Source: a virus
Reading direction: 5' to 3' (one strand)
IMG/VR virus record: IMGVR_UViG_3300006924_000015
Location: 1 to 61,464 of that record
DNA: 61,464 nt
Part shown: in pieces, positions 1 through 61,464 of the stretch
Position numbering within the stretch: the first letter of the stretch is position 1
Layout: the number at the start of each line of letters is the position of its first letter
Program-made: the position numbers and the translations under genes
The notes under the pieces: model-generated
What the model was told of the DNA's origin: nothing
What the model saw: only the letters and a program-made list of their open reading frames with translations
Database searches by the model: none

Positions 1-497
1 AATGTCCATGATGTTTCTTGGTTTAATGTGCCAGTCCATGAACTAGTAAAAGTTTTACTTGCATCTGTTGAGATAGTTCGTGAACTAGGTGAAAATCTGC
101 CATTCCAACAATCTTGTACGTTTAACATCAAGTTAGTCCAAGTTGTTGCATTAATTGTTGTTGATGTTGTTACGTCAGTTCCAACATTTGCTCTAACAGT
201 AATTCCTAAAAATGCACACATTGCCTGCACATCGTCCTGTAAGTCTTTAAAACCACCAGCACCTGTATCTTGAACTGTGCTACCGGCTGACGCGGCACTA
301 ACACCTGCACCACCTTGACCCCATCCGTATGTACTTGATGCAGTAAATGTTCCTGTTGTAACGTCTGCGGCATTGCCCATTAATGTATTAATGTTTGTTC
401 TAGCATTATTGAAATCTGCATCATCGATAACGTCTCCTGCAACGACTCCTGTCATTGTAGTTCCGCCTGATACTGTATAACTTGATCCTGATGCCAT
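1..497 (-). CDS. Tail-fiber-like structural protein, N-terminal part (runs off window)
   Basis: The minus-strand frame opens with ATG at 497 and stays open for 165 codons to the window edge, so the C-terminus is missing. A TTAGGAG ribosome site lies about 8 bases before the ATG. The visible protein begins MASGSSYTVSGG and is rich in Ser, Thr, Gly and Ala with evenly spaced Trp residues, like small virion fiber or baseplate proteins. I do not recognise a named family. It lies 31 bases after the preceding fiber gene and is probably the next gene of the same late operon. A degenerate late-promoter-like GGTAAATA at 522-529 overlaps the upstream stop codon and might give extra transcription. Confidence 0.7.
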   Translation of the reverse strand, partial: MASGSSYTVSGGTTMTGVVAGDVIDDADFNNARTNINTLMGNAADVTTGTFTASSTYGWGQGGAGVSAASAGSTVQDTGAGGFKDLQDDVQAMCAFLGITVRANVGTDVTTSTTINATTWTNLMLNVQDCWNGRFSPSSRTISTDASKTFTSSWTGTLNQETSWT

Positions 498-528
498 TTG
501 TTAACTCCTAATTTATACTACTATTTAC

Positions 529-60426: not shown

Positions 60427-60460
60427 GTTGTTAATAACAATTTTGTTTGAGAGATAATAA

Positions 60461-61464
60461 ATGGCTAATTTTAAACGCACTTACATCAACGCAGATGAGG
60501 AACTGGTAGTTCAGGGTAAACTCACGATTGAGGGACAACTGGAACAGAGGGAATTTGTTGAGACAAGTTCTTTTACACAAACTAATTTCAATGGTGATGT
60601 ACTTGTTGTTAATGCAGACGGTTTTGCAACAGACGGCACTACTGCAACAAACAGTGAACTAAAATTAAGATCAGGCGATTCAAACGCATCTATATTATTT
60701 AACTCAGTAGCAGGAACATTAACAGTTTCAGCCAGCCCAGCAATATCAACTACACTCACAGTAGATGGTGATATTTCAGCAACAGACATTACAGCAACTG
60801 GTGTGCTTACAGCACCTTCTTTTTCAGGTAATGCAACTTCGGCTACTACAGCAACAAGATTGGCAACTGGTAGAAACTTTAGTATTACAGGCGATTTATC
60901 ATCACCGTCAATTAGTTTTGACGGTAGCACAGATGTTGTATTAAATGCAACACTAGATACTGTAAACAGTAATGTAGGCAGTTTTGGTAGTGCTACAACT
61001 ATACCTACTTTTACAGTTAATGCAAAAGGTTTAACAACTGCGGTAACAAATCAATTAATAGCAATACCACATACGCAAGTTACAGACTTTGATGCAGAAG
61101 TAAAAGACCTTATTACCGGTGTTGATTCAGGTGGCGGCGGTAGTCTTTCATATGATAAGACAAGCGGCATTATAACTTACCAAGGACCAACTGATGCAGA
61201 AATAAGAGGATTGTTTAGTGGTGGAACAGGAATAACATATAGCAGTGGTGCAATTAGCATTACTAATAGTGGCGTAACAGCCGCAACATACGGAAGTGCA
61301 ACGGCAGTTCCACAAGTAGCCATAAATGCACAAGGACAAATAACAAGTGCATCAGCAGTAAACATAGCAATACCGCATACGCAAGTCACAGACTTTAACG
61401 CAGAAGTAAGAGCACTTATAAGTCATGTTGATTCAGGTGGTGATGGAAGTTTAACATACAATAG
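60461..61464 (+). CDS. Tail fiber-like protein, N-terminal part (runs off window)
   Basis: The frame from ATG 60461 stays open for 334 codons to the window end. It begins MANFKRTYINADEELVVQGK, a beta-rich head domain, then a Ser/Thr/Gly/Ala shaft. From residue about 195 on, a unit of about 102 residues starting IPHTQVTDF and containing DSGGGGSLSYDKTSGIITYQ repeats (second copy IPHTQVTDFNAEVRALI). The style is that of long phage fibers with ladder repeats. The C-terminus is not visible, so the receptor-binding part is unknown. It starts a new late unit behind its own GATAAATA. Confidence 0.75.
   Translation, partial: MANFKRTYINADEELVVQGKLTIEGQLEQREFVETSSFTQTNFNGDVLVVNADGFATDGTTATNSELKLRSGDSNASILFNSVAGTLTVSASPAISTTLTVDGDISATDITATGVLTAPSFSGNATSATTATRLATGRNFSITGDLSSPSISFDGSTDVVLNATLDTVNSNVGSFGSATTIPTFTVNAKGLTTAVTNQLIAIPHTQVTDFDAEVKDLITGVDSGGGGSLSYDKTSGIITYQGPTDAEIRGLFSGGTGITYSSGAISITNSGVTAATYGSATAVPQVAINAQGQITSASAVNIAIPHTQVTDFNAEVRALISHVDSGGDGSLTYN
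61061..61464 (+). repeat. 306-bp direct repeat in the right-hand fiber gene
   Basis: GCAATACC at 61061 and at 61367 begins copies spaced exactly 306 bases (102 codons). The second copy is cut by the window end. Third-position differences show that the repeat is old and selected at the protein level. Confidence 0.7.

Follow-up and report, generated by a model that had tools for sequence, protein, structure and literature searches.

Why should a long stretch of phage DNA hold not a single copy of GCWGC (GCAGC or GCTGC), the word that BbvI recognises? The question is raised by a virus fragment of 61,464 bases, an entire record that is referred to here as the window. Judged by its gene content, this fragment comes from a jumbo myophage akin to Pseudomonas phage PA5oct. 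It has T4-like head and baseplate genes and relatives, PA5oct has counterparts of its head, baseplate, SbcCD and sigma-factor genes, matches 1-11 of its capsid protein are all PA5oct-like, and so are its closest named relatives. The features used below are as follows.

9077-30565, minus strand: ORF of 7162 aa, matched by the PA5oct giant virion structural protein gp355
45646..48432, plus strand: SbcD/gp47-like and SbcC/gp46-like recombination nuclease genes (PHROGs matches)
48435..48857, plus strand: SegE-like GIY-YIG endonuclease gene, located after gp46 (PF19835, E 5.8e-33)
54465..56201, plus strand: portal protein (blastp match to the PA5oct portal)
59180..60322, plus strand: major capsid protein (gp23-like), 68.5% identical to the PA5oct capsid and the query for the locus scans

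Words missing from the window and the rule of their flanks

The first-pass annotation had read GCWGC as totally absent, and an exact count bears this out, with 0 GCAGC and 0 GCTGC in the 61,464 bases. The absence in fact exceeds what was claimed: the expectation had been put at roughly 40 sites and the GC content at about 36%, while Markov models give 80 (order-1), 86 (order-2) or 78 (maximum-order) expected sites and the GC content is 37.4%. In 1000 synonymous-codon shuffles of 28 window ORFs (27 of at least about 90 aa and a 69-aa ORF at 56201), in which the proteins and codon usage were preserved, the mean was 83.4 GCWGC sites (SD 4.7, minimum 69), against none in the real sequence. The near neighbours GCCGC (71 copies) and GCGGC (49) are as frequent as had been stated, and together (GCSGC) they are about fourfold over-represented, at 115 in the shuffled ORFs against 30.4 expected. 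GATC and GANTC, also reported as present, occur at near-normal frequencies of 153 observed to 178 expected and 165 to 157, respectively (152 against 154.9 and 159 against 147.5 in the codon shuffle of the ORFs). CTGCAG is likewise present but is itself depleted, with 5 sites against 14-27 expected.

GCWGC, the one word that the annotation had singled out, is just one of several that have been purged. The only 5-mers absent from the window are GCAGC/GCTGC and CGCGC/GCGCG, of which 16 were expected. AGCT occurs 30 times against 157-270 expected from Markov models, and all 30 sites read GAGCT on one of the two strands; the absent word is therefore HAGCTD, with 0 copies against 130.0 expected from the codon shuffle. 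Similarly, HGCGCD is found 0 times against 21.8 expected. When GCGC flanks were pooled over a GCWGC-free set comprising the window and four related records (g5, g6, g9 and g10, names which, like all those from g1 to g20, were coined in this analysis), the six HGCGCD hexamers all stood at 0. The survivors were almost exclusively GGCGC, the observed and expected numbers being 40/27 for GGCGCA, 8/6 for GGCGCC, 12/16 for AGCGCC and 0/6 for CGCGCC.

The same dependence on the flanking base is seen again in g18: its 55 AGCT sites all read GAGCT, although GCWGC stands at 308 observed to 206 expected. This recurrence suggests that more than one host group has an enzyme that reads HAGCTD or a mark adjoining the site. 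The non-palindromic words AGCCC and AGCGT are also avoided in g1 unless preceded by G, a pattern less often expected for orthodox Type II sites; AGCGT is kept in 9 places, 8 of them GAGCGT, and AGCCC in 19, 18 of them GAGCCC. We know of no Type II system for HAGCTD or HGCGCD, nor of a restriction specificity that fits such a rule. That the rule reflects real biochemistry, with AGCT lethal just in the form HAGCTD and GCGC just in the form HGCGCD, in lineages purged independently, is a tentative proposal, and one somewhat more doubtful than not. If it is true, restriction specificities not described so far, or a protective mark next to the site, would be widespread in an uncultured host group, and the purge profiles could serve as inventories of the restriction enzymes of hosts that have never been grown.

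Selection on the DNA word and its turnover among relatives

The strong selection against GCWGC proposed in the first-pass annotation stands, and it targets the DNA word itself, as is evident from the codon-shuffle null, from synonymous swaps and from zeros across the clade; the further step to host restriction is the explanation that fits best and is taken up below. Swaps were examined in window genes at least 60% identical to those of relatives g2 and g4, whose homologues hold 40 GCWGC sites where the window has 0 (a single window codon may count against both relatives). The capsid gene carries 7 GCWGC sites in g2 and 8 in g4, and the portal gene 7 and 3, respectively, against 0 in both window copies. 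The amino acids are fully conserved at 16 of the 40 aligned places, 14 of which are alanine wobble swaps from GCA/GCT to GCG/GCC; the other 24 show at least one changed residue. Pooled over six purged records, GCCGC and GCGGC together reach 4.51 times expectation, whereas GTAGC, GCAGT, ACAGC and GCAAC, the products of transitions, lie at only 0.95-1.27 times expectation, which argues against deamination.

The extent of the purge was followed by three capsid scans of IMG/VR, from which the best 80 of 594, 599 and 141 relatives were used. Loci with at least 5 expected sites were treated as testable and scored as purged at up to 10% of expectation and as normal above 50%; the scanned contigs are related and may overlap, and locus counts are thus not independent draws. 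Two loci with a capsid protein 100% identical to that of the window (L001 and L002) have 0 GCWGC against 18-23 and 14-16 expected. Among the best 80 window-like loci (88-100% capsid identity) 78 are testable, of which 55 are purged, 7 intermediate and 16 normal; the 55 purged loci together hold 2 GCWGC against 774 expected. The absence shared by these close relatives is not that of more distant ones. All 80 L127-like loci were testable (5 purged, 4 intermediate, 71 normal), as were all 80 PA5oct-like loci (1 purged, 79 normal), giving 6 purged, 4 intermediate and 150 normal among the 160 more distant loci. Four of the six loci with one or two GCWGC sites (L022, L040, L066 and L074) have one within the same word, GAGGCWGCTCAAGA, which is perhaps one place in the genome where GCWGC returns first.

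On a capsid tree (FastTree, 245 rows) the GCWGC state changes at least 10 times (63 rows purged, 169 normal, 13 unscored) and the HAGCTD state at least 11 times (58 purged, 167 normal, 20 unscored). Fifty rows are purged for both words, six for GCWGC alone and six for HAGCTD alone. A linked-change test of the two words found seven pairs on supported branches, which is too few, with a median p of 0.25.

The relatives also differ in which words they purge. The list below describes the longer records behind the loci, with words given as observed/expected. The fraction in brackets gives the eliminated over the testable palindromic words, a word being testable with at least 15 expected copies and eliminated below 10% of expectation; words containing AGCT or CATG were counted again.

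g1 (G001, record of L051, 250,519 bases; 8/91): GCWGC 0/221, AGCT 2/479, HGCGCD 0/73, GTATAC 0/91, GTTAAC 0/80; ACACTGT 0/46, ACAGTGC 0/31, ACACTGC 0/31 and GCACTGC 0/21, collectively RCASTGY
g2 (L079; 2/94): GCWGC 249/306, not purged but below expectation; RCGCGY 0/65
g3 (L059; 3/88): GCWGC 30/176, intermediate
g4 (L043; 3/83): GCWGC 86/127, not purged but below expectation; YACGTR 0/43, GACGTA 0/13
g5 (L039; 3/73): sole GCWGC in 65,737 bases at position 22, the very end of the contig, and possibly an assembly artefact
g6 (L014; 2/58): TTTAAA 0/34
g9 (L053; 3/63): GTNNAC 7/162
g10 (L033; 2/46)
Window (4/77)
g12 (L285; 9/108): RCGCGY 0/128, TGCGCA 0/42, GCWGC 11/392
g13 (L266; 1/104): GTATAC 1/66
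g14 (L209, 347,232 bases; 16/110): CCSGG 0/126, GGTACC 0/61, ACCGGT 0/48, GGATCC 0/42 and others, GTCGAC and TCGCGA also being purged; eliminated words nearly all GC-rich
g18 (L183, 132,571 bases; 7/90): CATG 0/400, HAGCTD 0/308, GCWGC normal
g19 (L205; 1/75)
g20 (L141; 5/96): CTTAAG 0/45

Many words are lost together mainly in the longer records, where more are testable. Among control stretches of 30-49 kb some lose words as well (0/72 in Vibrio 2.275, 0/60 in Phosso, 1/63 in SCTP-2 and 2/50 in each of HTVC008M and Melnitz-3), showing that elimination is not peculiar to this phage group. The control words include TCGA (0/34) and CASTG (1/41) in HTVC008M (L453, 1-30000), GATC (4/103) and GGWCC (0/24) in Melnitz-3 (L454, 40000-70000), and CCWGG (0/24) in SCTP-2 (L290).

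Candidate causes of the purge

A jumbo myophage lineage has most probably been selected to lose GCWGC, HAGCTD and HGCGCD under attack from Type II enzymes of its hosts that cleave at these words. Sites would be lost through synonymous or tolerated substitutions, and the loss would run to zero since a single surviving site suffices for cutting. Were the lineage to shift to hosts without the enzyme, sites would return, while encounters with new enzymes would lead to the purging of new words. The complete loss of palindromes, differing among relatives and repeatedly gained and lost, is what escape from host Type II enzymes predicts, and host restriction is the best explanation because the relatives purge other Type II-like words. 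The selecting agents would thus be host enzymes, and the phage presumably leaves the purged words unmodified. Against this explanation counts that no host, enzyme or methylation signal for the purged words was found in this analysis. The flank rule, the non-palindromic words avoided by g1 and the lack of a C5 methyltransferase match in the one cellular genome with a GCWGC-free phage contig (MED685, below) also speak against it.

The cause might instead lie in the phage itself, if a phage-encoded nuclease cut GCWGC (and others cut other words), destroying host DNA while the phage remained safe by carrying no sites. A constant, self-inflicted threat of this kind would yield an absolute zero, and the window offers a single candidate for a sequence-reading nuclease, the SegE-like GIY-YIG gene. 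This gene was rejected as the purging agent since g2 and g4, in both of which GCWGC is present, have copies 73% and 83% identical to it. The neighbouring SbcD/gp47-like and SbcC/gp46-like genes are likewise kept in both purged and non-purged relatives. A wider search covered g1, in which 115 proteins of 105-1600 aa that lacked a match to chosen annotated PA5oct genes were scanned together with 20 others; proteins shorter than 105 aa or longer than 1600 aa, and 7 that crossed piece ends, fell outside the scan. Homing-endonuclease and GIY-YIG models appeared, the latter in two proteins, but no restriction enzyme or DNA methyltransferase was found among the matches listed, which represent 25 of 31 PADLOC, 25 of 98 Pfam and 25 of 241 NCBIfam families. 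Across the records of 22 relatives, PF00145 (C5 methyltransferase) had no match and PF01555 was found in two (g12 and g20), none of them among the purged G001-G010. The few proteins common to the purged g1, g12 or g19 and not found in non-purged records (a comparison of partial genomes) gave no nuclease match. In addition, g1 would need a separate enzyme for every one of its roughly six to eight words. A phage nuclease is an unlikely cause.

The SegE-like gene shows a conservation of its own. It is 79-83% identical between the window and the distant relatives g19 and g20, whereas for the adjacent SbcCD genes identity to g19 drops to about 50-55%, and it is unmatched in PA5oct, g13 and g14; these patterns suggest that the gene may move between phages. 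Counterparts of the 7162-aa ORF vary in length, at 6236 aa in g1, 6778 aa in g2 and 5616 aa in g4.

One gene does follow the purge closely. A 689-aa g1 gene (L085:3346-5415) encodes a CHASE2 domain with an adenylate/guanylate cyclase, and of the 160 contigs that carry a relative 62-100% identical to it the best 80 are all purged. These 80 contigs, which are related (45 groups by shared 24-mers) and were found through a gene picked without prior reason, hold in 522,386 bases 0 GCWGC against 445 expected, 0 HAGCTD against 876 and 0 HGCGCD against 174. A tblastn search of the 15 remaining records, both purged and non-purged and several of them fragments, did not find the gene. As it encodes a cyclase and not a nuclease, it was rejected as the cause of the purge and is read as a marker of phages of one lineage or host group. 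Distant homologues (32-36%) occur in Pelagibacter phage HTVC008M and in Methylophilales phages, where stretches contain GCWGC at 34/14 and 28/18. A 252-aa gene common to g1 and g12, with no family match, was found on 7 contigs (g1 included), none of which has GCWGC. Metabolic and signalling genes of g1 comprise the CHASE2-cyclase, an alternative oxidase, a Cu/Zn SOD, CsgG, a carbamoyltransferase and many radical-SAM proteins; CsgG and the cyclase are close together in HTVC008M and Melnitz-3, with the carbamoyltransferase nearby in HTVC008M.

A second alternative is a protective DNA modification that depends on context, such as 7-deazaguanine beside a purine, so that only sites escaping it are purged and the flank rule marks the gaps. 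The forms in which AGCT, GCGC and, in g1, AGCGT and AGCCC survive are consistent with such a mark, and genes for a GTP cyclohydrolase and a QueE-like radical SAM protein are present in g1. However, words containing GA are themselves purged (GACGTA in g4; GGATCC, GTCGAC and TCGCGA in g14), and a GA-context modification was therefore not kept as the main cause. Even GAGCT is purged by g1, no flank protects GCWGC, and QueE-type genes are also present in PA5oct, which purges almost nothing. Protection by modification is accordingly quite improbable.

Very improbable is that another site-reading host defence (Type I or III restriction, a BREX-like or an unknown system) drives the loss. The avoidance of some non-palindromic words by g1 would fit, as would the finding of neither host nor enzyme, but the purged words are mostly palindromes of 4-6 bp, like orthodox Type II sites, and according to the available part of PMC6286503 sites of Type I and IIG systems were not eliminated and under-represented Type III sites were few. 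Mutation bias or codon usage without selection, for example through deamination of methylated C in GCWGC, has nothing in its favour beyond general AT-richness and is scarcely credible, as the shuffle that keeps codon usage still expects the word and the excess lies in GCSGC and not in the transition products.

As for the host, the sole match in a cellular genome is a 108-kb contig (capsid 70%) in the metagenome-assembled genome Gammaproteobacteria MED685; in the 21 kb examined GCWGC stands at 0/32 and AGCT at 80/85, and the bin has no PF00145 match. As a binned phage contig, it is a weak pointer to the host. The alternative oxidase of g1 and a plastocyanin/azurin-family protein prompted the idea of a cyanobacterial host; as a check on this, PF00124 was matched in 0 of 23 records. 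The alternative oxidase is present in 1 of the 23 (g1), its matches being one phage (62%) and 22 plasmids, mostly alphaproteobacterial.

Comparison with known site elimination

Restriction-site avoidance is ordinarily a partial bias. Here it is total, involves several words in records of 60-350 kb and flips repeatedly among relatives, which suggests that a jumbo-phage group counters restriction through changes in its own genome. The words that a phage lacks could link viruses seen solely in metagenomes to their hosts, and could predict restriction specificities not described so far (HAGCTD, HGCGCD). The flank rule deserves further attention, as does the reading of purge profiles as fingerprints of the host. 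Titles and abstract openings, with few subscription journals covered, yielded no account of such a purge in jumbo phages, and the available part of PMC6293099 contains nothing about site avoidance.

GCWGC is the recognition site of a known Type II system, TseI being given as specific for it (Hiraoka et al. 2019, PMC6329791), and is among the sites discussed in the available part of Rusinov et al. (2018, PMC6286503). According to the accessible portion of PMC6329791, lake prokaryotes methylate GCWGC (Chloroflexi bins) and AGCT (a Thaumarchaeota bin), the GCWGC enzyme appearing in its table without a listed restriction partner. Both words are thus methylated in environmental cells, with no link to these phages. 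The nearest named phage differs from the window: PA5oct (Arenbergviridae, 286,783 bases) shares the capsid (68.5%), head, baseplate and SbcCD genes, but has 383 GCWGC against 301 expected, and only GTGCAC (2/37) is eliminated among its 101 testable words (1/101).

In the available part of PMC6286503, site elimination is a known strategy, mainly concerning orthodox Type II sites in non-temperate dsDNA phages. The window resembles the cases of Rusinov et al. in that a Type II word lies below 0.1 of expectation with at least 15 expected, GCWGC being at 0 against 78-86 (Markov) or 83.4 (codon shuffle), and in the attribution to host restriction; the expectation used here, from Markov models or codon shuffles, differs from the statistic of that study. 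In contrast to those cases, as far as the available text describes them, the count in the window is exactly zero, several words are gone together, the loss of AGCT and GCGC is confined to certain flanks, the word sets of relatives differ and are repeatedly gained and lost, and no host was found. The purge in the window is thus an extreme, many-word and fast-changing case of restriction-site elimination, itself a known phenomenon, and what is unusual is its completeness, the number of words, their turnover and the flank rule.
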